DNA of 64,000 nucleotides, from positions 124,001 through 188,000 of the forward strand of contig NZ_CP104273.1 in NCBI RefSeq assembly GCF_025244865.1, given 5' to 3'. Below, in pieces: positions 230 through 60,185 of the stretch. Source of the stretch: Arthrobacter sp. zg-Y1110. GTDB taxonomy: Bacteria; Actinomycetota; Actinomycetes; Actinomycetales; Micrococcaceae. Under the pieces are notes generated by a model. The model saw only the letters and a list, made by a program, of their open reading frames with translations. It had not been told where the DNA came from and did not search any database. Position 1 is the first letter of the stretch, and the number at the start of each line of letters is the position of its first letter. Both the position numbers and the translations under genes were made by a program.

Positions 230-1171
230 TTACTGTCCGGGTTCGAAGACGTCGTCGTAGTAGATCTCGAACTTCAGGTCAGGGTCGGCCAGGCCATCCA
301 CGGCACGGCTGCCGACGGGCCCTTTCCTGTTCGTGGTGCGGACCGGGGACCCATGCTGGAGGAGGTGGGGCAGCTGGTCCTCGAATTCAGCAAGCCCGTC
401 CCCCAGGTCATCGCGGCGTGACTTGGTCATGTCGGAGCCGACGATGAAGGAGTAGGGGGTGTCCTGCTCAGGGTCGCTGACGTTCTCGCCCCGGATCGTG
501 GCGGCGTACGTGTAGCCGATGAGGCTGGCGGCCTGTTTCCGCTCTTCTTCGCTGAGGGGCCGGTTGGCCTGGAAACGCATTGAGTACGGGGTTCCGGCAA
601 AGGTGCCCGGGCGCCGGCGGTGGAAGACGGTTCCGTCCTCGGTCATGACCCTGTCGAAGATCTCCCCGTTCTGCACCCTCTGGTCGGAAGTATCCACCGG
701 GGCGTTGATCCCGTCGGGCAGCAAACGGGAGGCCAGTTCTGCGAGTTCCTCGTCACTGGCAAAGGTGTCGTCGCCTTCGTTGAGGTAATCCATCGGGCTG
801 GCCGCTGCGACCCGGGCCAGCGCATTCGCTTCCTCGATCCGGCCCGCTTCGCGCAGCTCCTTTTCGAGGGTCGTAACGGTCCGGGCATCGTCGGCACCGT
901 AGCCGCGGTCGCGGCGCAGGATCCGGTCGGCGGTCTTTTCGATGCTCTGGTCCGTGAAGTCCAGGTCTGCGTTGAGTCCTTCGATGAGTTCGTCGGTCTG
1001 TTCAACGCTCATCCGCCCGTTCAGGCCGTAGACGCGGAGCCTCTCCCTGACGTAGGCGGGATTGACGGTGGGAGGGCCCAGGCTCACCTGGGACTCGGAG
1101 TGGGCAGCGCCGGCGAACTGGCCGCCCGTGGGGACCCCTGCCGGGGTTCGTTTCTGGATAATCAGTGTCAT
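230..1171 (-). CDS. GGQFA-tagged protein of unknown function (313 aa)
   Basis: No domain recognised beyond an N-terminal tag, residues about 8-31: KRTPAGVPTGGQFAG, then HSESQVSLG. The same tag opens seven other otherwise different proteins here. The body is acidic and soluble-looking with no membrane segment. The ATG at 1171 is chosen because CCGCACACA lies 8 nt upstream, as in the other tagged genes; there is no good Shine-Dalgarno, so a leaderless or near-leaderless message is likely. It follows secE and its terminator. Function unknown. Confidence 0.75.
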   Translation of the reverse strand: MTLIIQKRTPAGVPTGGQFAGAAHSESQVSLGPPTVNPAYVRERLRVYGLNGRMSVEQTDELIEGLNADLDFTDQSIEKTADRILRRDRGYGADDARTVTTLEKELREAGRIEEANALARVAAASPMDYLNEGDDTFASDEELAELASRLLPDGINAPVDTSDQRVQNGEIFDRVMTEDGTVFHRRRPGTFAGTPYSMRFQANRPLSEEERKQAASLIGYTYAATIRGENVSDPEQDTPYSFIVGSDMTKSRRDDLGDGLAEFEDQLPHLLQHGSPVRTTNRKGPVGSRAVDGLADPDLKFEIYYDDVFEPGQ

Positions 1172-1177
1172 GCCCTG

Positions 1178-1190: not shown

Positions 1191-1196
1191 GGGCAT

Positions 1197-1233
1197 GCGA
1201 AAAGGCGCCCCGCCGAAACGGGACGCCTTCCAT
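1197..1233 (-). terminator. rho-independent terminator after secE
   Basis: Minus strand: AAGGCGTCCCG, loop TTTCGG, CGGGGCGCCTT followed by TTTT. Located 9-45 nt after the secE stop. Confidence 0.75.
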
Positions 1234-1241
1234 GGCCGGTG

Positions 1242-1514: not shown

Positions 1515-1583
1515 TCGGGAACGGTTCCTTGCTGTCAGGTGGTGCCGGCACACCCGGTCAGGGTGCACAGGCCTCTCGGTACC

Positions 1584-1614
1584 TATGTGTACGGCAGGAC
1601 GGGGAAAGCTCCCC
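1584..1614 (-). promoter_or_regulatory. promoter for secE (CACATA-type, TACACATA variant)
   Basis: GGGGAG, 17 bp, TACACATA; leader of about 60 nt before the secE ATG at 1514. The same C-to-T variant occurs at 51530. Confidence 0.7.
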
Positions 1615-1632
1615 GCCCTGCCGTGCGGGCAT

Positions 1633-2103
1633 CTACGCTGCCTCTGCCTGGGCCGTTTCTGCTCCGGGAATACCGAAGAGCTGGACATGCCGCAGCCACG
1701 GGTCGGTGCCCGGCTTGGGCTGCATGGCATCGAGCAGGTCCATGGTGCAGGGCTCGAAGAACTGGACGTAGCGGAACCATGCGTCGGTGCCGGGTTCGGG
1801 GGTGAGTGCTTCAAGCAGCTCGGTGACCGATTCATCGACAGGGTCCTCGCTGTCGCCCTCGAAGGAACGCAGCAGGGTGCCTTCGCTGTTGAAGACTGCA
1901 GCGCTGTGGGCGCGGACGCCTTCCTCGAATTCCTCAGGCACCACTTCGAGGCGGACGGCGGAGGGTTCCAGCGTCAGGACCCTGCGGGCAAGGAGCGTCC
2001 GGGTGATGGTGCGGATGTTCTCCTGCGCCTTCATCAGGTCGGCGTTGTGCCGGGCGATCAGCTGGACGAGCATGGTGTCGCCGGGGTTGTTTTCGATGCT
2101 CAT
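1633..2103 (-). CDS. hypothetical protein (156 aa), coupled to the tagged gene upstream
   Basis: Unknown soluble acidic protein. The C-terminal half holds two similar segments, LTPEPGTDAWFRYVQFFEP and MQPKPGTDPWLRHVQLFG, i.e. a short internal repeat (PxPGTDxWxRxVQxF). The ATG at 2103 overlaps the stop of the upstream gene by 4 nt (ATGA), arguing for translational coupling in a two-gene operon driven from 2949. Function unknown. Confidence 0.7.
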   Translation of the reverse strand: MSIENNPGDTMLVQLIARHNADLMKAQENIRTITRTLLARRVLTLEPSAVRLEVVPEEFEEGVRAHSAAVFNSEGTLLRSFEGDSEDPVDESVTELLEALTPEPGTDAWFRYVQFFEPCTMDLLDAMQPKPGTDPWLRHVQLFGIPGAETAQAEAA

Positions 2104-2942: not shown

Positions 2943-2948
2943 GCCCTC

Positions 2949-2979
2949 TATGTGTGCGGCAGGGGCAGGGAATGTCACA
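2949..2979 (-). promoter_or_regulatory. CACACATA promoter (leaderless) for the 2942 operon
   Basis: TGTGAC, 17 bp, CACACATA, then 6 nt (GAGGGC) to the ATG at 2942. Confidence 0.75.
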
Positions 2980-3013
2980 TCGTCGGCTGCCGGTTACTCC
3001 CTGAATGCCCAAA

Positions 3014-3019
3014 TAGGAT
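3014..3019 (+). promoter_or_regulatory. sigma-A-like -10 box, leaderless start
   Basis: TAGGAT followed by TGGGTG and the ATG at 3026. The plus-strand genes at 6173 and 7095 have the same geometry (TANNNT, 6 nt, ATG). Confidence 0.5.
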
Positions 3020-3025
3020 TGGGTG

Positions 3026-3880
3026 ATGAGCCAGGATATTGATCAGTCCCCGGAGCCGCTGAACTTCTTTGATCCGTCCGGTGGCGGCAGGCAGCCCCGG
3101 ACTCTGGCTCAGCTGGTTGCCGCCGGGGAAGCTGCAGTGGCCGCGGTGAAGGCTTACCGCTCGGCCATGTACGACTGCATGACGCCGCTGAATCTGCTCC
3201 GCGAGAACACTGAGGCGAAGGCAGCGGCGACCGCCCTGGAAATGCAGGTCAGGGAGATCGCCCAGGCTCAGGAAGCCATTGAATCCGACGCCCCTCTTGC
3301 CCGCCGGCTCGAAGACAGCGACCCGTGGGCTGCCCGGGACACCGTTGTGCTGAGCCCGAGGCAGATCAACGCACTGGCGGCCCGCGGCCGGGTTGCCCGT
3401 GCCACTGCATCGACATACAGGCAGGTCCTCTCCAAAGCTGCCGGGGAAGCACTGGTCCCGCCGCTGATTGCCATGGACCGGGAATCCAGTGCCTCATCGG
3501 ACAGCCGCGGAGCCTCTGCCGAGACCGCTGCAGCCAGGAACGCTGAACGGGACCGCATGGTGCTGGAGATCCTCACCGAGATGGAGTCGGTTGAATGCGA
3601 GACCTGCTCGGTCCAGCCGGGCCTGCCCTGCCTGACCGCGTCCGGATATGTCGCCGAGCGGCCGCACGCTCCCCGGTTCCGGTCATCACCGCTGGCCCAA
3701 GCCAACAGGGAGGAATCCTGGCTGGCCACGCGCCGGAAGGCGGACGGCTGGGCCCCTGCGCCGCTGGCCGAGTACCAGGGCCCGCTTCCGCGGCTGTCCG
3801 ACGGCGTGCCGCGCTCCGCTGCAGCCCAGTCCGAGGCGTTACGCAGGCAGCGCACGGTTCCCGGCCGGACGGAACGCTGA
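3026..3880 (+). CDS. hypothetical protein with C-terminal Cys/His cluster (284 aa), paralogue of 58190-58876
   Basis: Unknown protein. It shares with the gene at 58190-58876 the order CMTPLNL (about residue 52), VLSPRQINALA (about 110) and the C-terminal zinc-type cluster ECETCSVQPGLPC...SG...HAPR (about 190-215). The middle is helical and Ala-rich. The ATG at 3026 is chosen because TAGGAT, a good sigma-A -10, ends exactly 6 nt upstream, which implies a leaderless message. It points away from the tagged operon and converges on the ABC exporter. Confidence 0.75.
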   Translation: MSQDIDQSPEPLNFFDPSGGGRQPRTLAQLVAAGEAAVAAVKAYRSAMYDCMTPLNLLRENTEAKAAATALEMQVREIAQAQEAIESDAPLARRLEDSDPWAARDTVVLSPRQINALAARGRVARATASTYRQVLSKAAGEALVPPLIAMDRESSASSDSRGASAETAAARNAERDRMVLEILTEMESVECETCSVQPGLPCLTASGYVAERPHAPRFRSSPLAQANREESWLATRRKADGWAPAPLAEYQGPLPRLSDGVPRSAAAQSEALRRQRTVPGRTER

Positions 3881-3882
3881 CC

Positions 3883-5097
3883 TTATGTGCGCCGGGACAG
3901 CTCCCTGAGTGAAACCTTCGAGCCGTAGCGGATGCTTCCGTGGCGGAAGAGCTTCACGGCGGCTGCGAGCATCAGGCCACCGGCGAGGAACATTTCGGCC
4001 GAAACGATGACCGCCTGCATCGTGGTGAGGGATCCGAGCCCGTTCAGGAGCATGGCGGCCACGGGGGCAGAAAACGGGAAGTAGAGGAAGACCTGGACAA
4101 GGGGTGAGCCGGGGTCGCTGACGAACAGGGAGACGGCGTAGAGCGGAACGAACAGCATGATGGTGATCGCGCTGAAGAGCCCGTTGGCCTCCTTCGCAGT
4201 GGGCATGACGGCTCCGATCGCCATCAGGGTCGCGGTGAAAAGGACGAATCCCCCGACCAGCAGGACCGCCCCGGTGATCATGGCCTCGGGCTGTGGATCC
4301 ATCCTGGCCAGCACGGCCGCCGCAGTTCCTCCGCCTCCGTCCGCAAGGAAGTACCCGGCAGCGGGCAGGGCGAATACCGCCATCTGCACCAGGCCGGTGA
4401 GAAGCAGGGCCAGGATCTTGCCGGTGATAAGCGTGGTCGGGTTCAGGGTCGTCAGGATCATCTCGGTAACCCGGTTCTCCTTCTCCTCCACGGTGCTGTT
4501 CAGTATCTGGTTGCCCAGGAACAGGGTCACCGCGTAGAAGAGCGCCAGGAAAAGAAGCGGCGGCACGACGGCGTACATTCCTCCGGTGGCCTGCCCGTCG
4601 GCGTACATCGTCGAGCTGAAGGATGTGCCGCCGCCTGCAAGGGCCGCAAGTTCCGGGGATCCGATCTCCGTTACCGCTGCCTTGCTGACCATCTGTCCGG
4701 CGACGGCACTGTAGGCCTCCGAGTCGAAGATGCCCAGGTCCTTCCCGTGGATCTCGATGTCCTGACGGGCGGGATCTTCGGGGATGGCGAAGAATGCCTG
4801 GGCGCGTCCGGCACGGACGTCGTCCATGGCAGCCTGCGGGTCATCGGTCCGGGTTCCTCCGTAGCCGGCCGCCAGTTCATCGGCGATGAGCCCGGAGGCG
4901 TCCGTGAACGTGAAGGTGATCGAGGCGTTCTTCTGCTCGTCGGCGCTGCGGCTGGCCGTACCCGAGGTGAGGATCATCAGGGCCATGACGATGCCGATGA
5001 CGACGGGGACGCCGAGGGTGCCGAGCCAGAAGGACTTCTTCTTTACTGCCCGCAGGAACTCGAACGCGGTGACTGTTCCGAGATTATGCCCGGCCAT
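3883..5097 (-). CDS. ABC-2 type exporter permease (NatB-like, 404 aa)
   Basis: Inner-membrane permease partner of the ATPase at 5084-6079. An N-terminal membrane helix (LGTLGVPVVIGIVMALMIL) is followed by a large extracytoplasmic domain (about residues 45-175) and then five or six C-terminal membrane helices, the layout of ABC-2 family permeases such as NatB. It contains NSTVEEKENRVTEMILTT, the cytoplasmic coupling segment typical of this family. The ATG at 5097 overlaps the ATPase end by 14 nt. The substrate cannot be read from sequence; NatAB exports Na+, other members export drugs or peptides. Confidence 0.85.
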   Translation of the reverse strand: MAGHNLGTVTAFEFLRAVKKKSFWLGTLGVPVVIGIVMALMILTSGTASRSADEQKNASITFTFTDASGLIADELAAGYGGTRTDDPQAAMDDVRAGRAQAFFAIPEDPARQDIEIHGKDLGIFDSEAYSAVAGQMVSKAAVTEIGSPELAALAGGGTSFSSTMYADGQATGGMYAVVPPLLFLALFYAVTLFLGNQILNSTVEEKENRVTEMILTTLNPTTLITGKILALLLTGLVQMAVFALPAAGYFLADGGGGTAAAVLARMDPQPEAMITGAVLLVGGFVLFTATLMAIGAVMPTAKEANGLFSAITIMLFVPLYAVSLFVSDPGSPLVQVFLYFPFSAPVAAMLLNGLGSLTTMQAVIVSAEMFLAGGLMLAAAVKLFRHGSIRYGSKVSLRELSRRT

Positions 5098-6079
5098 TGC
5101 CGCCGCCTTCGCTTGAGGTTCCGTAGATGTGCATGAAGATCTCCTCCAGGGATGTTCTGGAGGCGGTGTACGAGGTGACGGGCAGGCCCTGGTCCATGAG
5201 GCTGCGGAGGACTCCTTCTTCGGAGGCAGCCTCCTCCAGCTCCAGACGGGCAGACCCTCCGGTTCCGGCCGGCACATTGGCCAGGACCCTGTAAGCCCCT
5301 GTGCGGTCCTCGATCTCCCGGAGCCGGCCCGCGTAGGTGAGAGCGACGGTACGGCCGCCGTAGAGGTCCTGAACGTCCCTGATGGTCCCGTAGGCGTGGG
5401 CGGTGCCGTCCCGCAGCAGCAGGATCCGGTCGCACATCCTTTCCACTTCGTCCATGTGGTGGGTGACCATCATGACGGTGGCGCCGGCAGCCTTCTGTTC
5501 GTCGATGATGTCCATGAGGAGGCGGCGGTTGACGGGGTCGAAGCCCTTCGTGGGCTCATCCAGGATGAGCAGTGAGGGGTTGCTCATGACGGTGACGCCA
5601 AGCTGGACTTTCTGCTGCTGGCCGCCGGAGAGCTTGTCCAGGCGCTCCCCCGCCTTGCCGTCCAGTCCGACGCGCTCCAGATACTGCCGGGACCAGCGGG
5701 CAGCCTCCCGGCGGCCCATTCCCTTGAGCCGGCCGAAGTAGACCATGACATCCAGCACCGGCTCCTTGCGGTACAGTCCGCGCTCCTCCGGCAGGTACCC
5801 CAGGTCCGCTCCGTCCCGGGGTCCAAAGCGGCGTCCGTTGACCAGCAGTGTTCCGGCGGTGGGCTGGTGGATCCCCAGCAGCGCGCGGATCGTGGTGGTC
5901 TTGCCGGAGCCGTTGCCGCCCAGGAATCCGAAGGTCTCCCCGCGGCCGACGTCGAAGGAGAGGTTGCGGATAACCTTCCGGGGCCCGAAGTCCATGCGGA
6001 AGTCTTCAACGCTCACGATCGCCTCAGGGTTACTTAACGGCGGTCCTCCCGTGGCCCCTATGATCCTGTTTTTGCTCAT
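5084..6079 (-). CDS. ABC exporter ATP-binding protein (NatA-like, 331 aa)
   Basis: Complete ABC ATPase: Walker A GGNGSGKTTT (about residues 53-62), Q-loop region YLPEERGLYRK, signature LSGGQQQKVQ (about 148), Walker B LLILDEPTKGFDP, and switch histidine in MMVTHHMDEVE. A C-terminal extension (about residues 235-330) resembles the DUF4162 tail of NatA-type exporters. The ATG at 6079 is 7 nt after a CACACATA element, so probably leaderless, and the permease follows with a 14-nt overlap. Confidence 0.9.
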   Translation of the reverse strand: MSKNRIIGATGGPPLSNPEAIVSVEDFRMDFGPRKVIRNLSFDVGRGETFGFLGGNGSGKTTTIRALLGIHQPTAGTLLVNGRRFGPRDGADLGYLPEERGLYRKEPVLDVMVYFGRLKGMGRREAARWSRQYLERVGLDGKAGERLDKLSGGQQQKVQLGVTVMSNPSLLILDEPTKGFDPVNRRLLMDIIDEQKAAGATVMMVTHHMDEVERMCDRILLLRDGTAHAYGTIRDVQDLYGGRTVALTYAGRLREIEDRTGAYRVLANVPAGTGGSARLELEEAASEEGVLRSLMDQGLPVTSYTASRTSLEEIFMHIYGTSSEGGGNGRA

Positions 6080-6086
6080 ACCGTCC

Positions 6087-6117
6087 TATGTGTGCGGCAG
6101 CTCCGGATTCAGTACCC
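6087..6117 (-). promoter_or_regulatory. CACACATA promoter (leaderless) for the ABC exporter
   Basis: GGGTAC, 17 bp, CACACATA, 7 nt to the ATG at 6079. Confidence 0.72.
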
Positions 6118-6160
6118 GCCGAAAGTTATCAGGTCGAGGCATTCATACCGACGGGTAATT

Positions 6161-6166
6161 TACGAT
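6161..6166 (+). promoter_or_regulatory. sigma-A-like -10 box, leaderless start of the sigma-factor gene
   Basis: TACGAT, then CCTCGA, then the ATG at 6173. Confidence 0.5.
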
Positions 6167-6172
6167 CCTCGA

Positions 6173-7012
6173 ATGTGTTCGGTTCCATCATCTTCGGGAT
6201 CCTTATCCGTCCGTGACGAACGGCTCCGCCGGGAGCGTCTGGTCATGGAGCACCTGCCGCTGGTCGGGTATGCAGTCTCAGAGTTCAGCAGGCGCGTACC
6301 GGGGATAGTTACCCGGGATGAGCTTGCGTCTGCAGGCTTTCTTGGCCTTGTGTCGGCCGCTGCCGCCTACGATCCCTCACGTAAAGTCCCGTTCGGCGCC
6401 TATGCGCGCACCCGCATCAACGGAACAATTTCCGACGAACTGAGGTCATTGGACTGGGCCAGCCGCGGGACCCGCCGGCGGATAAAAAACGCACGCACCG
6501 CAACGGATTCCCTGACGGCCGCCCTGGGCAGGGATCCCTCGCAGAAGGAGGTCTCGGAGCTCCTGGGAGTGGATGCCGAAGCTGTCCGCCTGACGGCCGT
6601 AGACGCCGCCCGGACCGTGGGCGACCTCGACGCTGAAGACGTCCAGGAGGTCAGCGACCAGGACCCGACACCCGAAGGTGTTCTCATGGCCGCCGAGGAG
6701 GAACTCCAGTTGCGGGCCGGCGTCCGGACGCTGCCGGAGAGGGTTCGATACGTGATCGAGGAGGTGTACTTCAACGACCGGAGTGTCAAGGACATTGCGG
6801 AAGAGATGGGCCGGACCAGCTCGGCAGTCTCCCAGGTCAGGGCCGAGGGCATCAGGCTGCTTCGGGACTGCATGTCGGTCTACGAGACCGGTGAGGGTAC
6901 GGGTGCGGCACCGGACACGGTCTCCAAGAGGCGCAGGTCGGACTATCTGAGGAATGTCTCCGAAGCGACTGCCGGAGGTATTGTCCGCCAACGCCGCACA
7001 TTCCAATCGTGA
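6173..7012 (+). CDS. FliA/WhiG-type alternative sigma factor (279 aa)
   Basis: Directs RNA polymerase to a promoter class. Region 2 is clear: DELASAGFLGLVSAAAAYDP then VPFGAYARTRINGTISDELR (about residues 44-90), typical of FliA/WhiG/SigB-group sigmas (MRGAMLDELR-type block). Region 3 (RDPSQKEVSELLGVDAEAV) and region 4 with a helix-turn-helix (SVKDIAEEMGRTSSAVSQVRAEGIRLLRD, about 205-235) follow. Start at the ATG at 6173 because a TACGAT -10 lies 6 nt upstream. It has no CACACATA element of its own, so it could be the early-expressed factor that reads those elements; that is inference. Confidence 0.88.
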   Translation: MCSVPSSSGSLSVRDERLRRERLVMEHLPLVGYAVSEFSRRVPGIVTRDELASAGFLGLVSAAAAYDPSRKVPFGAYARTRINGTISDELRSLDWASRGTRRRIKNARTATDSLTAALGRDPSQKEVSELLGVDAEAVRLTAVDAARTVGDLDAEDVQEVSDQDPTPEGVLMAAEEELQLRAGVRTLPERVRYVIEEVYFNDRSVKDIAEEMGRTSSAVSQVRAEGIRLLRDCMSVYETGEGTGAAPDTVSKRRRSDYLRNVSEATAGGIVRQRRTFQS

Positions 7013-14368: not shown

Positions 14369-14622
14369 TCCGCACCAAGGATGACACCACCGACGACACC
14401 GGCCTGGCCGCAGGGTTCGGCAGCGGCAGGTGCGCCTGGGACCGTTCGGTCTGTGTGGACAAACCCACCCACTTCGTGACCAGCGACAGTGTCGAGGGCA
14501 GGAGTGCCGACGTCTACTGTCTGCGGCACTACGTGCTCTCGCTGGCACTTCTGTGCGAACTTCACCTGCCGGACTGCGCCGGCGACTTCCCCGGACACAT
14601 CACGCGGCACGGAAAGTTTTAG
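14365..14622 (+). CDS. hypothetical Cys-rich protein (85 aa)
   Basis: Five cysteines and several histidines (RCAWDRSVCV, YCLRHYV, LCELHLPDC) suggest zinc binding. ATG overlaps the upstream stop by 4 nt. Function unknown. Confidence 0.7.
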   Translation: MIRTKDDTTDDTGLAAGFGSGRCAWDRSVCVDKPTHFVTSDSVEGRSADVYCLRHYVLSLALLCELHLPDCAGDFPGHITRHGKF

Positions 14623-14636
14623 CCTGCAGGCAAAGC

Positions 14637-14677
14637 GAAAGGCCCCGGAACCCGCGCAGGGTCCCGGGGCCTTTCTT
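14637..14677. terminator. bidirectional rho-independent terminator
   Basis: AAAGGCCCCGG and CCGGGGCCTTT arms flanking a short loop, between convergent genes; T-runs on both sides. Confidence 0.85.
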
Positions 14678-14682
14678 CCGGC

Positions 14683-15504
14683 TTAGCTTCCGAAGGTGTC
14701 CTGGAAGAAGTGCCGGTTGGCATCAGCCTTGGCCAGCAGCTCCTCGCCGGTGAAGTATTTCCGGTCGAACTGCTCCCACTCCCCGACGTACATCGTCCAC
14801 TCGCCGTCGACCTGGACGGGCCAGCAGCGGCGCACCCGGTTCAGCTTCTCGCTGGCCTCGCCGGTCCCCGGGTCGGTGCCCGTGTACTGCAGGACGGTGC
14901 AGTTGTGCACGGTCTGGGACTTGTCCTGGTCGCGGGCCATGAACTCTTCGTCGCTCCAGCGCTCCAGCACGAGGCGGGTGGCCCACATGAACTCGCCGTG
15001 GGTGACCATCAGGACGTTTTCGCGGGCGTTCTCCCGGTGCAGGGTGTTCAGGACGTTCCGGACCCGGTTCTCGGCCACGTTGGCAATGGATTCCCCGGCC
15101 GGCGGCGCCCAGTACAGCGGGTCGGTGTCCCGGTACTCCGCATTGCGGGCATACCGCTTCCGGAAGTCCTGCTTGGACATGGAGCCGATCTCGCCCCACG
15201 AGCGTTCGCGGATGACGCGGTTCTCTTCCCAGCGCACGTCCAGGCCGAGGTTGGCCGCGGTCTCACGGGTGCGGGTGTACGTGGAGACGATGGAGCGGTC
15301 GAAGTCGATGCCCTGCTCGGCAATCCACGCGCCGGCTGCCTTAGCCTGCTGGACGCCCAGTGCCGTGAGGCGCCAGGAACGGTCAGGGACCGTCATCGTC
15401 TCTTCGGTGTAGAGGCTTTCGTCGCCGGCCTTGGAAGCCTTCTGCATGATGTTCGCTTCGCTCTGTCCGTGACGGACCAGGAAGAGATTGCGGGGCATGA
15501 CCAT
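14683..15504 (-). CDS. histidine phosphatase superfamily protein (phosphoglycerate mutase-like, 273 aa)
   Basis: N-terminal catalytic RHG motif in LFLVRHGQSEAN (about 7-18) and the second catalytic His in MVTHGEFMWATR (about 168-179). Between lie helices with RTRETAANLGL, the phosphate-pocket Arg region. The family covers phosphoglycerate mutases, fructose-bisphosphatases and phosphoprotein phosphatases; the substrate is not readable here. The ATG at 15504 has RBS AAGGAG 6 nt upstream and a CACACATA promoter 50 nt upstream. Confidence 0.85.
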   Translation of the reverse strand: MVMPRNLFLVRHGQSEANIMQKASKAGDESLYTEETMTVPDRSWRLTALGVQQAKAAGAWIAEQGIDFDRSIVSTYTRTRETAANLGLDVRWEENRVIRERSWGEIGSMSKQDFRKRYARNAEYRDTDPLYWAPPAGESIANVAENRVRNVLNTLHRENARENVLMVTHGEFMWATRLVLERWSDEEFMARDQDKSQTVHNCTVLQYTGTDPGTGEASEKLNRVRRCWPVQVDGEWTMYVGEWEQFDRKYFTGEELLAKADANRHFFQDTFGS

Positions 15505-18453: not shown

Positions 18454-18456
18454 GTG

Positions 18457-18843
18457 TGGAGATGGGGGGAGTTGAACCCCCGTCCACCCTCCGGTTCCAA
18501 ACTCTTCTACGGGCGTAGTCCGCCTTGATGTTTATCGACCCGGTTCCGTCACGGCGGACGACGGCGTGACCCGGTCTAGCTGCTGATACGAACGGCTGCT
18601 CGCAGCACAGCGGCCGTTCAGGACTCCTTTGGCTGATGCCTATCCTGCGGCCGAGTTCCGGTTGCCTGATGCAGGATGAGACAGACCACGCTTAGGTCCC
18701 GGCGTAACTAAACGGCGAGAGCGTAGTCGGAGCGAGTTGCGTTGGCATCTCTTGGGTGCACGAACTGTTTAGCCAGATGGCCGTGCATTTCTGGGCCCGC
18801 TTCTTTTCGGAAGCACCGAAGGATGTCGAAACCCGGCATCCCC
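18457..18843 (-). ncRNA. ssrA: tmRNA (tag ANATRSDYALAV)
   Basis: Transfer-messenger RNA rescues stalled ribosomes and tags the peptide for proteolysis. The 5' end GGGGATG pairs with the 3' CATCTCC; the 5' domain has CCGGGTTTCGACATCC and the 3' end carries the tRNA-like T-arm with TTCAACT. The tag ORF decodes as ANATRSDYALAV then TAG. Cellular tags normally end ALAA; here the last residue is Val, which may change recognition by ClpX. Located just downstream of a degenerate tRNA and a micro-ORF, probably transcribed from 19195. Confidence 0.93.
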
Positions 18844-33364: not shown

Positions 33365-34189
33365 ATGATCGGCAGCGGGCGCAGTCCTGCCCATAGGGCC
33401 CACAGGCCACGGGACAGATTCCTGTCGGGCGCGGTGCCGGGGATGGCCGTGGCAGGTGCGTTCTGGCTGGCGACGATGGTTCCGATGACCTCTGCCGGGG
33501 TGGGAGCAGGGCTCGAGGCACTCCGCGGTGACTGGCCCCGCGCCGGCGGCGGCACAACCCGGGCAGGAAACGTCACAGCTGATCCTTCTCCGGATGCTCC
33601 CTACGCTTTCACGGGCACAGCCGGCCAGGCAGTTGTTGCCTTCGATCCGTGCGATCCGGTCCGGTACGTGATCGCCGAACAGGGCCGCCCGGACGGCAGC
33701 GACGAGCTGGTGTTCGAGGCGGTCGACGACGTCGCCGCAGCAACCGGACTGGATTTCGTCTACGAGGGGTTGTCCTCGGAGCGGCCTTCCACGGACCGGG
33801 AGAAATATCAGCAGGCCCTGTACGGAGACAGGTGGGCACCGGTGCTTATCGCATGGTCCGGCCCTGCGGAGGTTCAGGCCCTGGAGGGTCCCGCTGCCGG
33901 GCTGGGCGGCAGCACGCCGGTGAAGGCCGGGTCCCAGCCGTGGATTTACGCCACCGGTCAGGTGATCCTGGACGCCCCGCAGCTCGGGCCGCTGCTCGGT
34001 GACCGGGACGGTGCCGGTGTGGTGCGTTCGGTCATCGGACATGAACTGGGGCATGTGGCCGGACTGGCCCATGTCGGGGACCCGGATCAGCTCATGAATC
34101 CGGAGGCCGGTGAGGTGGCTGTATTTGCTGCCGGGGATCTTGAGGGCCTGTCGGTGCTTGGCCGTGGATCCTGCGTGGCCGAATACTAG
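33365..34189 (+). CDS. secreted zinc metalloprotease, metzincin type (274 aa)
   Basis: Zinc site HELGHVAGLAH at about residues 226-236 (HExxHxxGxxH, the extended metzincin motif) with a following Met-turn-like DQLMNP. An N-terminal hydrophobic stretch (GMAVAGAFWLATMVPMTSAG, about 26-45) after RPRDR fits an export signal or anchor. Most similar in layout to matrixin-like proteases of actinobacteria. ATG at 33365 with GGGGGCGG upstream. It could use the element's own SecYEG; substrates may be cell-surface proteins. Ends overlapping the convergent gene. Confidence 0.8.
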   Translation: MIGSGRSPAHRAHRPRDRFLSGAVPGMAVAGAFWLATMVPMTSAGVGAGLEALRGDWPRAGGGTTRAGNVTADPSPDAPYAFTGTAGQAVVAFDPCDPVRYVIAEQGRPDGSDELVFEAVDDVAAATGLDFVYEGLSSERPSTDREKYQQALYGDRWAPVLIAWSGPAEVQALEGPAAGLGGSTPVKAGSQPWIYATGQVILDAPQLGPLLGDRDGAGVVRSVIGHELGHVAGLAHVGDPDQLMNPEAGEVAVFAAGDLEGLSVLGRGSCVAEY

Positions 34190-34767
34190 GCTGCCTCGGC
34201 GTGGGGCAGGCCCAGGCCGGCTTCCTCGTTGGCGGCAATCCGGTCCACCGCCTCCTTCAGGCTGCGGCTCACTGCCAGCCGCTGGCGCTCACATTCAAGG
34301 GCCAGGTCCGGGAATACCCGGGCAATCTCTGCCAGGCATTTGATCTTGAGCTCGATGTTGTACGAGCGGCGCAGGTCATTGGAGTTCAGGCTGTTGACGA
34401 TCAGGGTGTGGTCGTACTTGGTCCTGTTGTGCCGGATGTAATTCACGGTGACGCGGTCAAGGTTCTCCGGGCGCATCTTCTCTATGTCCGGGACCCGGCG
34501 TCCGTCATCCCAGGCCAGTTCCGCATAGGTGTTGTACGCGAGAACCCGAAGGTCGGCGAGGGTTTCGTCGCAGGTCATGGTGATCTTCAGGCTGCGTGCC
34601 GAGCGGCGGACTTTGTTCAGTTCGCTGCGCGTGGTCAGCCGGACCGCTTTGCGTACGTCCGGGTTGGAGGAGCGGTAGGCGGCCAGCCGTCCGCGCCCCT
34701 TCCGGAGCCGTTCCATGGGTTCCTGATCGCTGTCGACAAATGCCTGGTACCGCGGCGGGATGTGCAT
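34186..34767 (-). CDS. hypothetical basic protein (193 aa)
   Basis: Unknown; helical and basic with YNTYAELAWDDGRRVPDIEK and YIRHNRTKYDHTL. The phrase RHNRTxYD recalls DUF2293-like or phage nucleic-acid proteins, but no firm match. ATG at 34767 with AAAGGGG upstream; under the CGCATAGA element at 34815. Confidence 0.65.
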   Translation of the reverse strand: MHIPPRYQAFVDSDQEPMERLRKGRGRLAAYRSSNPDVRKAVRLTTRSELNKVRRSARSLKITMTCDETLADLRVLAYNTYAELAWDDGRRVPDIEKMRPENLDRVTVNYIRHNRTKYDHTLIVNSLNSNDLRRSYNIELKIKCLAEIARVFPDLALECERQRLAVSRSLKEAVDRIAANEEAGLGLPHAEAA

Positions 34768-35041: not shown

Positions 35042-35476
35042 CGGGCTGGTCCCGGCGGAGGCCACACGGACCATGGCCCGTGCGGCGCGGGCCAGATCCC
35101 CGGCAGGGTCCGCGTTCCGGTTGGCAAGGCTCAGCTGCAGCAGCTGTACCCGAAGGAAGTCTGCGTCCGGGTCCCGGGTGCGGGAGGTTGTGAGGCCCAT
35201 GGAGTATTCCGTCACGTCCCACAGCGCCTCGTGCAGCTGCCATGCCCGGATGAGGCGTCCGGAGAGCAGTGCGGCCCGGTAGCGGCGGGCGATGAGGCGG
35301 CGAAGGGCCCCGGACATGTAGATGAGCACCATGGTTCGGGCACTCGTTTCCGTGTCCGGGGGCGAAGCGGCGATGGCGCTGTTCATGGTGCGGACCAGGT
35401 CCAGTTCCGTGGTGTCGCCGCTCCGCAGCTGCCCGTCCAGGATTTCCACCAGGACGGGCCTTCCTTCCCCTGTCAC
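35033..35476 (-). CDS. hypothetical protein coupled to secY (147 aa)
   Basis: Unknown helical protein. The GTG at 35476 overlaps the secY stop by 4 nt (GTGA), so it is translated with SecY; a role at the translocon is a guess. No signal peptide or clear membrane helix. Confidence 0.68.
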   Translation of the reverse strand: MTGEGRPVLVEILDGQLRSGDTTELDLVRTMNSAIAASPPDTETSARTMVLIYMSGALRRLIARRYRAALLSGRLIRAWQLHEALWDVTEYSMGLTTSRTRDPDADFLRVQLLQLSLANRNADPAGDLARAARAMVRVASAGTSPVE

Positions 35477-36780
35477 CTCAGGAGGCTGCCGTAGTTGCGC
35501 TGGTCGACCTGCGAGCTGATCTGCTTGATGGTTTCCAGTCCCACCCCGACGATGATCAGGATGGCTGCGCCGCCGAACGGGAAGTTCTGGTTGGCGTTGA
35601 TCAGCACGAGGGCAATCAGCGGGATGAGCGACAGGATGCCGATGTAGAGGGCACCGAAAGCCGTGATGCGGTTCGAGGTGTACGCCAGCAGGTCGCGGGT
35701 CTGTTTGCCGGCACGGTAGCCGGGAATGAAGCCGCCGTACTTGCGCATGTTCTCGGCGATCTCGTCCGGCTCGAAGGTGATGGAGACGTAGAAGAACGCG
35801 AATCCGACGATGAGCAGGAAGTAGACCGCCATGTACAGCGGGTGGTCACCGACGGTCAGGTAGCGGGTGATCCAGACGGCCCAGTCGGGGCTGGTCCCGT
35901 CCGGCTTCGTGGCGAACTGGGCGGCCATGGACGGCAGGGAGAGCAGCGCTGACGCGAAGATGACGGGAACGATGCCGGCCATGTTGACCTTGATGGGCAG
36001 GAACGTGGCGTTGCCGCCGTAGGTCTTGCCTGCCACGACGCGCTTGGAGTAGACGACCTTCAGGCGGCGCTGGGACTGTTCGACCAGAACGACCAGCGTC
36101 ATGGTGAGCAGGCCGACGGCGATGACGGCAGCGAAGACGCCCCAGCCCTGGGTCTGTCCGATGGCTCCGAGGGAGGACGGGAAGCCGGCGGCAATGGAGG
36201 TGAAGATGAGCAGGGAAAGACCGTTGCCGACGCCGTGCTCGGTGATCTTTTCACCCATCCACATGACCAGCATGGCGCCTGCGGTCAGGGCAATGATCAT
36301 GATGAGTGCGGTCATGACGGAATCGTTGGCCACGATCGGCAGCTGGCAGCCGCCCATGAGAGTGCCGTTGCGGGCCATGGTGACGACGGTGGTGGCGTTG
36401 ACCGCGGCGAGGCCGACGGCGACGTAGCGGGTGTACTGGGTGGTCTTGGCTGTGCCGGAGGCGCCTTCCTTGTGCAGTTCCTGCAGACGGGGGACGATCA
36501 CGCGCAGCAGCTGCATGAGGATGGACGCAGTGATGTACGGCATGACGCCCAGGGCGAGGATCGACACGGAGAGCAGTGCCCCGCCGGAGAACATGTTCAC
36601 CAGGTCATAGACGCCGCCGGTGGTGGTGCCGCCGTCCAGGCACTGCTTGACGTTGGTGGCGTTGATGCCCGGGGCGGGAATGAATGATCCCAGGCGGTAG
36701 AGGGCGAGAACGCCCAGGGTGAAGAAGATCTTCGTGCGCAGATCAGGGCTCTGAAATACGCGTTTGATAGGTTCCAGCAC
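35473..36780 (-). CDS. secY: SecY, preprotein translocase channel (435 aa)
   Basis: Full-length ten-helix channel. N-terminus PIKRVFQSPDLRTKIFFTLG and FRLGSF-type TM1 (LYRLGSFIPAPGIN), plug region GGALLSVSILALGVMPYITASI, and the conserved C-terminal cytoplasmic loops (RPG-type FIPGYRAGKQT, IGILSLIPLIALV). GTG start at 36780 with a strong RBS (AAGGAGGACC). Lies 44 nt after secG and is coupled to a 147-aa gene. Chromosomal secY sits in the spc ribosomal operon with adk; here there are no ribosomal genes. Confidence 0.96.
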   Translation of the reverse strand: MLEPIKRVFQSPDLRTKIFFTLGVLALYRLGSFIPAPGINATNVKQCLDGGTTTGGVYDLVNMFSGGALLSVSILALGVMPYITASILMQLLRVIVPRLQELHKEGASGTAKTTQYTRYVAVGLAAVNATTVVTMARNGTLMGGCQLPIVANDSVMTALIMIIALTAGAMLVMWMGEKITEHGVGNGLSLLIFTSIAAGFPSSLGAIGQTQGWGVFAAVIAVGLLTMTLVVLVEQSQRRLKVVYSKRVVAGKTYGGNATFLPIKVNMAGIVPVIFASALLSLPSMAAQFATKPDGTSPDWAVWITRYLTVGDHPLYMAVYFLLIVGFAFFYVSITFEPDEIAENMRKYGGFIPGYRAGKQTRDLLAYTSNRITAFGALYIGILSLIPLIALVLINANQNFPFGGAAILIIVGVGLETIKQISSQVDQRNYGSLLR

Positions 36781-36824
36781 GGGCTGGTCCTCCTTTGAGG
36801 AGTCGGGGCGGGGTGGAAGGAGGA

Positions 36825-37070
36825 TCAGGCGTTGAAGCGCACGAGCACACCGGTCGCGGCAATGGACAGGGTCCAGAGCACGGCGATGGTGACGGTCACG
36901 CGCAGCATGTTCTTCTCGGCGACACCGGTGGAGGCCAGACTGCTGGTCATTCCTCCGCCGAAGATGTCGGTTGCTCCCCCGCCCTTGGATTTGTGCAGCA
37001 GGACCATGCCGATCAGCGCGAGGCTAAGGGCCGCGGTCAGGACCTGCAGGGCGATAGTCAGAAAATTCAT
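36825..37070 (-). CDS. secG: SecG, preprotein translocase subunit (81 aa)
   Basis: Two-helix SecG layout: ALQVLTAALSLALIGMVLLHKSKGGGATDIFGGG (the conserved KGGG...FGGG loop, about residues 27-40) and a second helix VTVTIAVLWTLSIAATGVLV. It assists SecA-driven translocation. ATG at 37070; first gene of the secG-secY-147 aa operon under the CGCATAGA element at 37126. secG-secY adjacency is not the usual chromosomal order. Confidence 0.93.
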   Translation of the reverse strand: MNFLTIALQVLTAALSLALIGMVLLHKSKGGGATDIFGGGMTSSLASTGVAEKNMLRVTVTIAVLWTLSIAATGVLVRFNA

Positions 37071-37125: not shown

Positions 37126-37149
37126 TCTATGCGTTCCGCGGGTTGACGG
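37126..37149 (-). promoter_or_regulatory. CCGTCA-N10-CGCATAGA element for secG-secY
   Basis: 56 nt upstream of the secG ATG. Confidence 0.68.
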
Positions 37150-37161: not shown

Positions 37162-37740
37162 TCAGGCGATGCTCAGTGCCGGTGCGTGCGCGGGGGTTTC
37201 GGCCGCACGTTCCACCGGGGGTTTCGCCGGTGCCGGGGAGCGGGGGACCTCGACGGATTCCGCTGGCTTGCGTGCGGTTGAACGGCGTGCCGCGGCAGGC
37301 TTCTTGACGGGCTTCGCAGCGGACTTCTGCACGAGGATCACTGTCAGGTGGGTGATGGCCAGGAGTACGACCGGCGGCATGGCGGCAACGATGGCTGAAA
37401 CAACTGCGGGCACCGCCCCGTCTCCGCCGACGGCCAGGATTGCGTGGACGGCGTTAGCGGCCGTGCTGACGACGGCGCCGAAGAAGAGCAGCGCCCACGG
37501 GTAGGCGAGGACCCGCTTTTCATGGCCGGCCAGCGCCACGATGGCCACGGTGGCGGCCACGATGAGGCCGTCGACGATGATCGGCCAGATCCAGGCGAGG
37601 TCAGGGTTCAGGCCCGACATGACGGCAAGGTCTGTCAGGGCCGAGAAGGAAAGGATGAACGCTCCGGCGGCAATGATGACCGTGGTGGCGAAGCCGGTCA
37701 TGACGATGGGGCGGGACAGGGGTGTGGCGTTCTTGCTCAT
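37162..37740 (-). CDS. DUF2637 (SpdB-like) membrane protein (192 aa)
   Basis: Four membrane helices (TVIIAAGAFILSFSALTDLAVMSG, IWPIIVDGLIVAATVAIVAL, AYPWALLFFGAVVSTAANAVHAIL, VVLLAITHLTVILVQ) followed by a Lys/Ala/Pro-rich cytoplasmic tail, the DUF2637 pattern seen in Streptomyces spread proteins and other actinobacterial plasmids and phages. Located in an operon with the 220-aa gene at 37786. Role may be in conjugal spread or membrane remodelling. Confidence 0.78.
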   Translation of the reverse strand: MSKNATPLSRPIVMTGFATTVIIAAGAFILSFSALTDLAVMSGLNPDLAWIWPIIVDGLIVAATVAIVALAGHEKRVLAYPWALLFFGAVVSTAANAVHAILAVGGDGAVPAVVSAIVAAMPPVVLLAITHLTVILVQKSAAKPVKKPAAARRSTARKPAESVEVPRSPAPAKPPVERAAETPAHAPALSIA

Positions 37741-37785: not shown

Positions 37786-38448
37786 TTAGCGGGTCTCGAG
37801 GCCGTCTTTTTCACGGGCGATGTCCACTGCGGTGCTGAGGATCAGGCGGACGGTTCCGGCCAGCTTGTCGGGATCGACGCCGGCGCCGGAGTCGAGGATG
37901 CGCTGTGCGATGGCCCGGGTGTCGCATGACATGCGCTGGATGCGGCGGGAGTCGTCGAACAGGTCTGCCAGGATCAGCGCGTCGGCTGCCGTTACGGGGC
38001 CGATGGACCCTCCGCTGCCGTCGCCGGCAAGTCCGGCCTTGGCGTACCGCGGTTCGGACTTGGCCTCGGCGGGGTTGCCTGCCGTCTCGATCTCACCGGC
38101 GATCTTCTCCACCGCGCGGTCCACGCAGCCGACATGGGTCTCGGCGCGGAAGGCTTCACGGTAGAGCCGGAAGCGCATCGGAATCTCGAAGAGGTAATCG
38201 TAGAGCGGGCGCTTGTCTTCCAGCCCGAACTTGTCCGTCAGCACGTCGCAGGCATCCAGGATGGCCGTGGTGGTCTGGTGTTCCAGCCTCCGTACGAGCT
38301 GGCTTACGGTGCCTGCGGATTCCATGGCCCGATAGGCCGGGGATCCGGTGCGTTCATCGGCGGCAGCCTTGGACATGGCGGTCAGCAGGGAACCGAGGGC
38401 GTCAGTGTCGAGGGCATCGGATTCTTCGGGGGCGGGGGTTTCGCTCAT
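37786..38448 (-). CDS. hypothetical protein (220 aa)
   Basis: Unknown helical acidic protein, no membrane segment. ATG at 38448 lies 6 nt after CACACATA, so leaderless. Followed by the DUF2637 gene 45 nt downstream. Confidence 0.68.
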   Translation of the reverse strand: MSETPAPEESDALDTDALGSLLTAMSKAAADERTGSPAYRAMESAGTVSQLVRRLEHQTTTAILDACDVLTDKFGLEDKRPLYDYLFEIPMRFRLYREAFRAETHVGCVDRAVEKIAGEIETAGNPAEAKSEPRYAKAGLAGDGSGGSIGPVTAADALILADLFDDSRRIQRMSCDTRAIAQRILDSGAGVDPDKLAGTVRLILSTAVDIAREKDGLETR

Positions 38449-39434: not shown

Positions 39435-39458
39435 TCTATGCGCCCCGGGCTCCGGCGG
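39435..39458 (-). promoter_or_regulatory. CCGTCA-like-N10-CGCATAGA element for the DsbA-like gene
   Basis: CCGCCG, 10 nt, CGCATAGA, 62 nt upstream of the ATG at 39373; overlaps the end of the nuclease-like gene. Confidence 0.55.
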
Positions 39459-40422
39459 CTGTCCTTGCGGCGCCCAGGGGACGTCCGGAACGGCGCGCAG
39501 AGAGTTTGGCGGTGATGACGTAGTCATTGCTTGGGGCCAGCGTCCGGGTCGCCTCGTCGAAGACCGCTGTGGCAGCGAAACGGTAGGCGGCTGCGACGTC
39601 TGCCGGGGACTGCAGTGCGATGGGGTCCGGTTCCAGCAGTGCTTTGAGCCGGGACGGTGCCGGGCGGCGTGCCTTGGCGATGCCGTCTGCTTCCACGCTG
39701 TCCCAGGGTTCACCGGCGGGCACTGCCCCCTCACGGCCGAAGGTGGCATAGGTGAGGTCCGCCTTGCCTGCAGGCGAACGCGTGACCAGGGTGTGCACCG
39801 CCCGGCCGGGACCCGGCTTGGCCAGGGATCCTCCGATGAGCAGCTTCCGGGACGGTGTGTAGGGCGCCTCGCGCAGCGGTACGGGCATCGGTCCGGCGAT
39901 GGTGGCGATGATCTTGGCCATTGATCCGGCGTCCATGAATGCCGCCCCCTTCACTTCCAGCCAGAGCTCGTGCTGCGGCAGGTAGAAGTCGGGGAGGTAC
40001 CAGAGGTGGGGGCCGACCTGGTAGTGGGATGGCTCGTAGTCCCAGTTGATGTCCAGCAGGTCCATGAGGATGGCCCAGCGTGCCTCCAGGCGGGAGCGGA
40101 AGATCTTGCCTGAGTAGAGCGCCTCCATGGCCTTCGGTTTCGGGGCCCGGGAGGTGTGCTTGCGCACCGGAGCCTTCGAGGCAGGCTTCCTGGTGCCCGC
40201 CGCAGGCTTCCTCTTGGCTGCTGCCGGCTTGGCAGGAGCTTTCCTACGTCCTGCCGGTGTTGCCTTTGCCGTGGCCGCAGGAGCCTTCCTGGCGGTTTTC
40301 CGCGCCGGCGTGGCCGCGGGTTTCTTCTTTGCGGGTGCGGCAGCTTTGGGAGCCGCTTTCACGGCTGGTTTCGTAGTCATGGCAGGGGCGGCCTTGGGGC
40401 GGCCCGCTTTCTTCTCCGGCAT
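39436..40422 (-). CDS. PD-(D/E)XK nuclease-like protein with histone-like tail (328 aa)
   Basis: The N-terminal 95 residues are Lys/Ala/Pro-rich (AAPKAAAPAKKKPAATPARK...), like histone H1 or HU tails, and could bind DNA. The core has RSRLEARWAILMDLLDINWDYEP, YLPDFYLP and WLEVKG (about 108-162), the E...D...ExK pattern of phage and transposon-type PD-(D/E)XK nucleases. ATG at 40422 with AGGAGGAACCAC. The C-terminal third is unknown. Nuclease activity is inferred. Confidence 0.72.
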   Translation of the reverse strand: MPEKKAGRPKAAPAMTTKPAVKAAPKAAAPAKKKPAATPARKTARKAPAATAKATPAGRRKAPAKPAAAKRKPAAGTRKPASKAPVRKHTSRAPKPKAMEALYSGKIFRSRLEARWAILMDLLDINWDYEPSHYQVGPHLWYLPDFYLPQHELWLEVKGAAFMDAGSMAKIIATIAGPMPVPLREAPYTPSRKLLIGGSLAKPGPGRAVHTLVTRSPAGKADLTYATFGREGAVPAGEPWDSVEADGIAKARRPAPSRLKALLEPDPIALQSPADVAAAYRFAATAVFDEATRTLAPSNDYVITAKLSARRSGRPLGAARTAAGARGA

Positions 40423-59333: not shown

Positions 59334-60185
59334 TCACTCGCCGATCAGGCTCGTCACCCGGATATGGCTGACTTTCCATTCCCCGTCGGATGCCAGCTTC
59401 ATCTCAATCCGGTATTCGGCCTCGTCGGATTCAATGCTGTCGCTCCCGTTATGGGTCGCACGGAGCGAGTAGGACACCTGCCCCCTGAAGGTAAGCAGAC
59501 CCATATCCGCCTGCCCCGGCTCATAACCGGAAAGGAAGATCTCGCCGGGGATGATGCTGCGGTTCACCATCCTCATCTTGTCCTCGCCGTACTGGTATTC
59601 GAAGGGGCTTTCCTGCTTCCAGTCGGAAGTGCCGCTCGGGTCTCCGTTAGGCCAGCCGTTCAGGGCCAGCCGCTCCGGCGTCATCGTCGCCATGTACGTG
59701 ATGGAGTTGTCCATTGAGAACTCCACATCGTCGGCAAAATGGTCCTTGTTTGCGGCAACCCATTCGTCCCAGGCCTTCTGGCTTTCGCCGTTCCTCGGGG
59801 CGCGCAGCGTGCTGTCTATTCCTTCGGTGGCCAGGAAGCGCATGGCAACCGCCTGTGCCTGTGTCACCTGCTCCTCAGTGAGTCCCGCGTCCCAGACTTC
59901 AGGGTCCACGAGGTTCCGGGAAAACGTAAGTGCAGGATCGTCATCGGCGATAGTGGACTGAAGGTAGGAACCGTATCCATCGTTTTTCACCCCGTTGTCC
60001 GGGAACAGATTCACCGACTCCCCGTCTGCGCCTACGCCGGCAAACCCTTCAGGTGCCGTCTGCTCGGCCTGCGCCGGCTCATCAACCTTTTCGGGAGAGG
60101 CAGCACAGCCGCCCACCAGCAGCGGAATGGCCAGTGCAATGCCAAGCGCAGACCTCCAGCGGGCCCTCTTTGAGACAAATTCCAT
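59334..60185 (-). CDS. lipoprotein of unknown function (283 aa)
   Basis: Signal peptide SALGIALAIPLLVGGC with lipobox LVGGC (Cys about 27), then an acidic soluble domain. C-terminal half is beta-rich (TFRGQVSYSLRATHNGSDSIESDEAEYRIEMKLASDGEWKVSHI) like NTF2 or DUF-type ligand folds of actinobacterial lipoproteins. ATG at 60185 with AAGGAAAATC. Anchored on the outer face of the membrane after Sec export. Confidence 0.82.
   Translation of the reverse strand: MEFVSKRARWRSALGIALAIPLLVGGCAASPEKVDEPAQAEQTAPEGFAGVGADGESVNLFPDNGVKNDGYGSYLQSTIADDDPALTFSRNLVDPEVWDAGLTEEQVTQAQAVAMRFLATEGIDSTLRAPRNGESQKAWDEWVAANKDHFADDVEFSMDNSITYMATMTPERLALNGWPNGDPSGTSDWKQESPFEYQYGEDKMRMVNRSIIPGEIFLSGYEPGQADMGLLTFRGQVSYSLRATHNGSDSIESDEAEYRIEMKLASDGEWKVSHIRVTSLIGE

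Follow-up and report, generated by a model that had tools for sequence, protein, structure and literature searches.

Why should a mobile piece of DNA carry a protein-conducting channel of its own? The Sec channel is usually viewed as a universal set of chromosomal genes, hard to transfer. The locus that raises the question lies in a stretch of 64,000 nucleotides from Arthrobacter sp. zg-Y1110 (hereafter the window), positions 124001-188000 of contig C2 (400,603 bp). The assembly consists of two contigs and 3.9 Mb, the other contig, C1, being the chromosome (3,506,099 bp). A previous examination of the letters of this DNA, made without database searches (the sequence-only reading), had noticed there a complete SecYEG translocon, secY, secE and secG, on what looked like a mobile element. 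We find that this set comes in addition to that of the host and that it belongs to the gene core of a family of megaplasmids, of roughly 400,000 bases, in Arthrobacter-like soil bacteria. Its role, as read from the genes, would be that of an auxiliary, SecA-dependent translocon for the envelope proteins of the element, a reading to which we give a probability of about 0.6.

A second set beside that of the host

The element-borne genes are the following:

35473..36780 (-), secY: GTG start, 435 amino acids; matches TIGR00967 and PF00344
36825..37070 (-), secG: 81 amino acids; matches TIGR00810 and PF03840
1242..1514 (-), secE: 90 amino acids; matches TIGR00964 and PF00584

The positions first assigned to them were exact, and the subunits are full length, their three reading frames being open. 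On the minus strand secG lies upstream of secY, with a gap of 44 bp, while secE is located about 34 kb away. An alternative frame would give secE 197 amino acids; the 90-residue start was preferred because its MTQTL beginning is common to close homologues. Against the NCBIfam models, SecY scores 390.8 bits with TIGR00967 (cut-off 253.6), SecG 54.2 bits with TIGR00810 (cut-off 30.85) and SecE 59.7 bits with TIGR00964 (cut-off 27.55): the three subunits of a canonical SecYEG are present, each above its curated cut-off. The element's SecY is also strongly similar in sequence to the SecYs of solved structure.

The chromosome contig has the following genes:

C1 2728143-2729447, chromosomal secY
C1 2783348-2783569, chromosomal secE
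C1 1813397-1813606, chromosomal secG
C1 2538625, secA, the sole one found in the assembly

Because C1 bears its own secY, secE, secG and secA, the set of the element is an additional one beside a full host set. Duplication of the secretion channel, one of two strategies that had been imagined for this DNA, is what is seen; the other, a reprogramming of the host channel, finds no support, with secY, secE and secG of the host present and no SecA found on the element. The two SecYs of the strain are 63% identical, and identity with the host ranges from 54 to 63% over the three subunits. Like the chromosomal SecYEG of Micrococcaceae, the element's set belongs to the same families and has full-length subunits, the key pore positions and the loop arginine. 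It differs in being a second copy, carried by a megaplasmid and placed in a clade of its own, and in its surroundings: secG adjoins secY, and neither ribosomal-protein genes nor nusG are seen as neighbours. Ten proteins of the window, nine of them near the Sec genes, gave no Pfam match to a ribosomal protein or to NusG, and the annotation around the Sec genes of three related plasmids names neither, which bears out the impression of a context unlike that of chromosomes.

A SecY match was obtained in 196 of 197 Micrococcaceae genomes searched, and two matches in three of them: zg-Y1110, G115 (with a second copy at 72%) and G065. Two SecE matches are found in three of 396 genomes of the order (zg-Y1110, G398 and G569).

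The megaplasmid family and the origin of its Sec genes

Searched by tblastn, SecY appears in 95 of the 72,556 plasmids of PLSDB. The nearest are three megaplasmids of Micrococcaceae:

A. caoxuetaonis zg-Y453 plasmid, 374,851 bp, SecY 90% identical
pYJN5-1 (Paenarthrobacter sp. YJN-5), 440,465 bp, SecY 72.5% identical
pACHL01 (Pseudarthrobacter chlorophenolicus A6), 426,858 bp, SecY 72% identical

All three also carry secE and secG (SecE 55-79%, SecG 53-80% identity). The three genes are thus on four of the four replicons compared, in a conserved gene order, and the family ranges in size from 375 to 440 kb. The co-occurrence that the sequence-only reading had proposed to look for in related plasmids is there, on these three megaplasmids and on a contig of A. 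terrae described below.

Core genes were determined as reciprocal best hits among genes called by a program of ours. Of the 465 genes called on C2, the A. caoxuetaonis plasmid shares 363, pACHL01 210 and pYJN5-1 205; 177 are common to all. According to the annotation of the A. caoxuetaonis homologues and to Pfam, this core codes for a VirD4-like protein, two FtsK-like proteins, an AAA_10 ATPase and ParA, for DNA polymerase III alpha, a ribonucleotide reductase, an NAD ligase, an RNA ligase and a sigma factor, and for a penicillin-binding protein together with ATPases and a membrane protein of a type IV pilus. The AAA_10 ATPase of C2 is one that we take to be VirB4-like. A VirB4-type ATPase, a VirD4-type protein, a wall hydrolase and a partition gene, which together were to characterize a conjugative megaplasmid, are all found, with AAA_10 and CHAP matches on C2 itself and with VirD4-type and ParA labels that come from the annotation of homologues. 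No relaxase is named in the annotation. Judged by its gene content, C2, a contig of plasmid type, is a member of a family of conjugation-type Micrococcaceae megaplasmids. There is no terminal overlap on C2, and for this reason its circularity is argued from its relatives, which are recorded as circular. The family is also rich in tRNA genes: ARAGORN finds 42 on C2, 37 on the A. caoxuetaonis plasmid, 41 on pACHL01 and 43 on pYJN5-1. Transfer-messenger RNA (tmRNA) is found on C2, pACHL01 and pYJN5-1, and was not found on the A. caoxuetaonis plasmid by ARAGORN, nor by Rfam over a 41-kb stretch.

More distant relatives exist. When 84,980 species genomes were scanned with a pattern of the VirB4-like ATPase, seven loci came out, including some in A. 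terrae, Cellulosimicrobium and Ornithinimicrobium murale. In A. terrae, contig C56 bears a second SecY and a second SecE, to which tblastn adds SecG as well as 74 genes of the 177-gene core; we infer that it forms a single element with the separate contig that bears the VirB4-like gene. Core genes are matched on a 215-kb contig of Cellulosimicrobium (36 of 177, with 32 tRNAs) and on a 472-kb contig of O. murale (41 of 177, with 36 tRNAs); these two contigs, which may be incomplete, have no SecY or SecE profile match. For the other four VirB4-like loci, a search at genome level gave no more than one SecY and one SecE per genome; such negatives are soft, since the SecY model, when applied to whole genomes, failed to detect the gene in three of seven genomes and in one of 14 controls.

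Is the extra set maintained by selection? The ratio of non-synonymous to synonymous substitution rates (dN/dS) was computed by the Nei-Gojobori method, with a script of ours, between C2 and the A. caoxuetaonis plasmid, for 273 gene pairs of at least 60% identity. It amounts to 0.15 for secY, 0.21 for secG and 0.34 for secE, the median of the 273 pairs being 0.22. By this measure the element's secYEG is under purifying selection. The channel itself is well preserved: of the 169 columns found to be near-invariant among 71 chromosomal SecYs, those of the element retain 126. Four equivalents of the pore ring are identical in 16 of 16 element rows; at the fifth position the element has V, chromosomal SecYs either I or V; and the sixth (E. 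coli 282) is of doubtful mapping. The loop arginine is kept. In the SecY of C2, V79, I83, I192, I274, I409 and R356 correspond to E. coli 82, 86, 191, 278, 408 and R357; the names of these positions and the numbering offset are presumed ones, mapped through the E. coli alignment. Neither of the two observations that could have undermined a duplicated channel, a sole secYEG in the host or the loss of channel residues, is made: a second set is on C1 and the key residues are kept.

The trees of SecY and SecE that had been suggested place the element rows in clades of their own. In a tree of 90 SecYs, 16 element-type rows make up one clade (approximate likelihood-ratio support, SH-aLRT, 100; stem 0.61), set beside 21 other Micrococcaceae rows with a support of 92. 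Removing six long or plasmid rows gives an 84-row tree in which the clade keeps its support of 100 on a stem of 0.63, joins the 21 rows at 84, and forms with the Micrococcaceae chromosomal rows a single clade supported at 99. The 16 rows include nine database proteins, some from short metagenome contigs, that were typed by sequence alone, and two further pairs that are near-duplicates. Eleven element rows of SecE form a clade as well (support 96), which splits as SecY does, C2 and A. caoxuetaonis on one side, pACHL01 and pYJN5-1 on the other. Because there is one SecY clade, on a long stem within Micrococcaceae, and because the split of SecE runs parallel to it, the trees point to one old capture from a chromosome of the Micrococcaceae lineage, which would have been followed by inheritance with the element. 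Confidence in the position of the element SecY inside Micrococcaceae is moderate at best, for its long stem could pull it there. The SecYs of C2 and pACHL01 are 72% identical, as against 84% for the chromosomal SecYs of zg-Y1110 and a Pseudarthrobacter (one pair each, from different Pseudarthrobacter strains), which hints that the element SecY changes faster than its chromosomal counterpart.

What the second channel may be for

No match to SecA (SecA_DEAD) was found on C2 or on the five plasmid records tested. As no motor was found on the element, a working channel must use the SecA and the signal recognition particle (SRP) of the host. The element's subunits would assemble with one another into a channel powered by host SecA and supplied by host SRP and ribosomes, and this channel would insert and export envelope proteins of the element, namely those of the type IV pilus, prepilin-like proteins and conjugation proteins, as well as the penicillin-binding protein, LysM/CHAP proteins and Fn3 surface proteins. 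Having its own channel would relieve the element from competition for host translocons, and its wider outfit (the 42 tRNAs, the tmRNA, and core genes for a sigma factor, a polymerase and a reductase) may lessen the dependence of its expression on the host. This suggests a mobile element that brings along its own doorway for building surface machinery.

What do the candidate clients tell us? Signal-like N-termini, according to a crude, home-made predictor, are present in 55 of the 465 proteins of C2 versus 25 of 388 in 400 kb of chromosome (odds ratio 1.95, P 0.009). In the core, 17 of 177 proteins bear such signals, including a prepilin, lipoprotein-like proteins, the penicillin-binding protein and a LysM protein. 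One core protein has the prepilin motif TIGR02532, and the review PMC9360617 describes prepilin signal peptides as directing proteins to the Sec machinery. That type IV pilins would be the sole clients is an idea weakened by the rarity of the motif, no commoner here than on the chromosome. The strict motifs being so few, a role specific to pilins is weakly founded, and an auxiliary translocon for the element's envelope proteins at large seems to us likelier than one reserved for pilins.

A number of observations weigh against this interpretation. The total of membrane plus exported proteins does not rise (131 of 465 on C2 versus 115 of 388, P 0.65), and strict prepilin motifs number four of 465 on C2 and three of 388 on the chromosome. 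Among the three Sec genes it is secE that is under the loosest constraint, its dN/dS ranking 243 of 273, and three of the 12 SecE matches (P0010-P0012) fall outside the element SecE clade. In SecY, the element clade has a different fixed residue at 11 of the 169 near-invariant columns, and the AlphaFold model, with a mean predicted local distance difference test (pLDDT) score of 65.5, is of low confidence and was put to no use. On the conjugation side, C2's VirD4-like protein matches no Pfam family at 1e-5, and MOB-suite classes the three relatives as non-mobilizable. That the Cellulosimicrobium and O. murale contigs gave neither Sec nor pilus genes says little about a link between the two, because they match no more than 36 and 41 genes of the 177-gene core. 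Finally, assembly, choice of partners and clients of the element's SecYEG are all deduced from sequence. If the interpretation is true, a plasmid SecYEG that is selected and works with the SecA of hosts across genera would make a natural experiment on translocon orthogonality and plasmid host range, and whether the supply of translocons limits megaplasmid conjugation or pilus building becomes testable.

An effect of dosage only is possible, if on the unlikely side: the extra subunits would mix freely with host SecYEG and make more translocons, with neither dedicated clients nor dedicated partners. The identity of the subunits with those of the host (54-63%), a motor that would have to be shared as none was found on the element, and the retention of most near-invariant SecY columns are all compatible with it. 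It accounts less well for the long clade-specific stem (0.61-0.63), for the parallel lineages of SecY and SecE, for element SecYs more divergent than chromosomal ones (the 72% versus 84% of one pair each), and for the retention of all three subunits, not of SecY alone. An auxiliary translocon with its own clients remains the reading that we prefer.

The 11 changed columns might tell another story. Four are in the C4 loop, two in the C-terminal tail and none in C5; the C4 loop and the tail are cytosolic faces that meet the ribosome or SecA. Taken together, these two regions hold six of the 11 changes versus 31 of the 169 near-invariant columns (hypergeometric P 0.006), in a small test whose loop limits we set ourselves after viewing the list of changes; by loop, C4 alone gives P 0.03 and C6 alone P 0.15. 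A changed partner surface is possible. That the channel would, as a result, prefer other states of the ribosome or of SecA, or resist agents that exploit host SecY, is improbable in view of such small numbers and post hoc boundaries, and PADLOC has no match for the Sec genes and four neighbours; a report that toxins of contact-dependent inhibition (CDI) enter via SecY (PMC7858069) lends the idea some appeal. Still less probable is a passenger, or a decaying copy without function: a complete host set makes the copy dispensable in principle, and against this stand open frames, dN/dS values of 0.15-0.34, and retention in four of four replicons despite the separate sites of secE and secGY.

There remains the phage. 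A tRNA array, genes of nucleotide metabolism, a polymerase of its own and ligases are features of the C2 family that occur in giant phages too. PHROGs profiles were run on 52 of the 91 large core proteins, at least 25 families being examined among the 62 that matched; among nine proteins scanned singly, two matched virion-type names. The LysM protein has many endolysin matches, and residues 280-447 of a 769-residue core protein match two tape-measure profiles, one virion-protein profile and one endolysin profile, a CHAP domain lying at the end of the protein. Both are likelier to be wall hydrolases, the second because an endolysin profile covers the same stretch and the CHAP domain is terminal; a distant relation of the latter to tail proteins may exist. 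Besides, SecY has 14 matches among phage records: two contigs of more than 500 kb with Salmonella names, two of 240 kb (Acinetobacter phage) and ten unannotated ones of 2-153 kb. The four larger records name SecY in their annotation, and all 14 look like bacterial sequence. A large phage or phage-plasmid with a takeover translocon is the least probable of the explanations and a phage origin is disfavoured, as no capsid, portal, terminase or tail protein is named anywhere in the annotated A. caoxuetaonis plasmid, pattern scans of IMG/VR gave no contig encoding a protein related to SecY or to the VirB4-like ATPase, and the element has VirB4/VirD4-like genes; a viral reading is not borne out, in a profile scan that covered 52 of the 91 large core proteins.

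Other Sec systems and the neighbours of the Sec genes

The accessory Sec systems of Gram-positive bacteria (SecA2-SecY2-Asp4-Asp5) resemble the element in having a second SecY-type channel with small partners, sometimes borne by plasmids (PMC5076819). They differ from it in having their own SecA, of which C2 and the five plasmids tested showed none. The element SecY scores 143.8 and 137 bits with two SecY2 models whose cut-offs are 353 and 249.6; with scores so far below the cut-offs and no SecA found on the element, identity with an accessory SecY2 was rejected. On the Lactobacillus kefiranofaciens plasmid pWW1, a cluster at 522-5293 comprises secG-, secE-, secA- and secY-type genes. Our search of the open-access literature, with subscription papers and preprints outside its scope, found no report of a canonical plasmid or phage SecYEG without SecA. 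Accessory Sec systems that bring their own SecA are known from plasmids; a plasmid-borne set of canonical type that lacks SecA would be new.

The genomic context was viewed for 13 of the 95 PLSDB records with SecY. Five are ribosomal-protein operons (Tsukamurella, C. difficile, Comamonas, Sphingopyxis and Parabacteroides), three records lack a SecE match (two Streptomyces and one Paraburkholderia), and the remaining five are the Lactobacillus set with secA, one Bifidobacterium megaplasmid and the three of the Micrococcaceae family. Four PLSDB plasmids with secY in ribosomal-protein operons are either essential-gene plasmids or misfiled pieces of chromosome. On pBIL of Paraburkholderia fungorum (1866-6270) secY adjoins lgt, and the record has no SecE match. 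A plasmid-inherited SecYEG such as that of the C2 family counsels caution in taking SecY matches on plasmids for chromosomal markers.

The Bifidobacterium case deserves attention. pMP7017 of Bifidobacterium breve, described in the literature as a conjugative megaplasmid, has VirB4-, FtsK- and RNA-ligase-like genes, a tRNA array and a tmRNA, the last two also appearing in PMC10832533, the main text of which contains none of the words 'SecY', 'SecE' and 'translocase'. The plasmid shares these features, and Sec genes, with the C2 family. It bears a secE-secG pair (14604-15243) and no SecY match; a B. longum relative has secY, secE and secG, and four B. longum plasmids have SecY. Its backbone is distant: 20 reciprocal best hits with C2 are 22-51% identical, long backbone matches 24-36%, and the VirB4-like ATPase 28% over 870 residues (E 2.8e-76). 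On a contig of more than 548 kb, from a genome whose family we took to be Bifidobacteriaceae, there is a SecY with 95% identity to that of the B. longum plasmid, and the SecG of pMP7017 is closer to the chromosomal SecG of zg-Y1110 (62%) than to that of C2 (49%). For these two reasons the Bifidobacterium Sec genes were probably captured separately, by a backbone only distantly related to that of C2. The SecE of pMP7017 has 21 relatives, on contigs of up to 185 kb. Together, the Sec genes of the Bifidobacterium and Micrococcaceae plasmids suggest convergence. As a tentative proposal, large conjugative actinobacterial plasmids with tRNA arrays and tmRNA would have recruited a complete SecYEG independently, in Micrococcaceae and in Bifidobacterium at least once each, a portable chain that runs from transcription and translation to membrane insertion insulating them from the host's supply of translocons during transfer and the building of surface organelles.

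Around the Sec genes of the window we find the following:

230..1171 (-), conserved unknown adjoining secE; core gene, order with secE kept in four of four plasmids
1583..1590 (-), exact ACACATAG motif upstream of secE
34186..34767 (-), conserved unknown downstream of secY; core gene
37126..37133 (-), variant motif CGCATAGA upstream of secG
37162..37740 (-), DUF2637 membrane protein (PF10935) upstream of secG, conserved neighbour
37786..38448 (-), conserved unknown of the secGY cluster, 220 amino acids; no Pfam match, four-plasmid core
38546..39373 (-), DsbA-like thioredoxin-fold protein (PF13462)
39436..40422 (-), conserved unknown of the secGY cluster, 328 amino acids; no Pfam match, four-plasmid core
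47154-50171, Fn3 protein with a pilin-like start, 1005 amino acids, N-terminus SGAFDLPSI...
59334-60185, lipoprotein-like open reading frame

The DUF2637 gene keeps its order next to secG in four of four plasmids, and it has homologues on two distant contigs without SecY or SecE matches. Export clients and a DsbA-like oxidoreductase had been proposed as companions of the channel. The lipoprotein-like, pilin-like Fn3 and DsbA-like reading frames are indeed present; their conservation is only partial, and the matrixin match behind the metzincin (33242/33443-34189) reaches 20.4 and 21 bits, under the Pfam gathering cut-off of 24. The DsbA-like gene is found on the A. caoxuetaonis plasmid and lies outside the four-plasmid core, a reciprocal best hit missing in two of three relatives. 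By eye, the N-terminus of the Fn3 protein resembles those of C2 proteins at 70499-71023 and 231528-237953.

A motif specific to the element, as had been said, does exist. There are 99 exact copies of ACACATAG on C2 versus three in 400 kb of chromosome, one of them upstream of secE; secG has only the variant CGCATAGA, of which there are 22 on C2 versus five in 400 kb of chromosome. The A. caoxuetaonis plasmid has 112 copies of ACACATAG, pACHL01 and pYJN5-1 only 16 and 21. The motif, which is CCGCACACATAG-like, stands in many intergenic regions of C2, and ACACATAG lies at most 100 bp upstream of 74 of the 465 called genes. Before the gene at 37786-38448 the motif ends five bases short of the start codon, a spacing that would fit a leaderless transcript. 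As for the tRNA array, ARAGORN places 40 tRNA genes and the tmRNA (18456-18843) in the window, spanning 8215-56995, with 37 of the tRNAs at about 21.5-31.6 kb.

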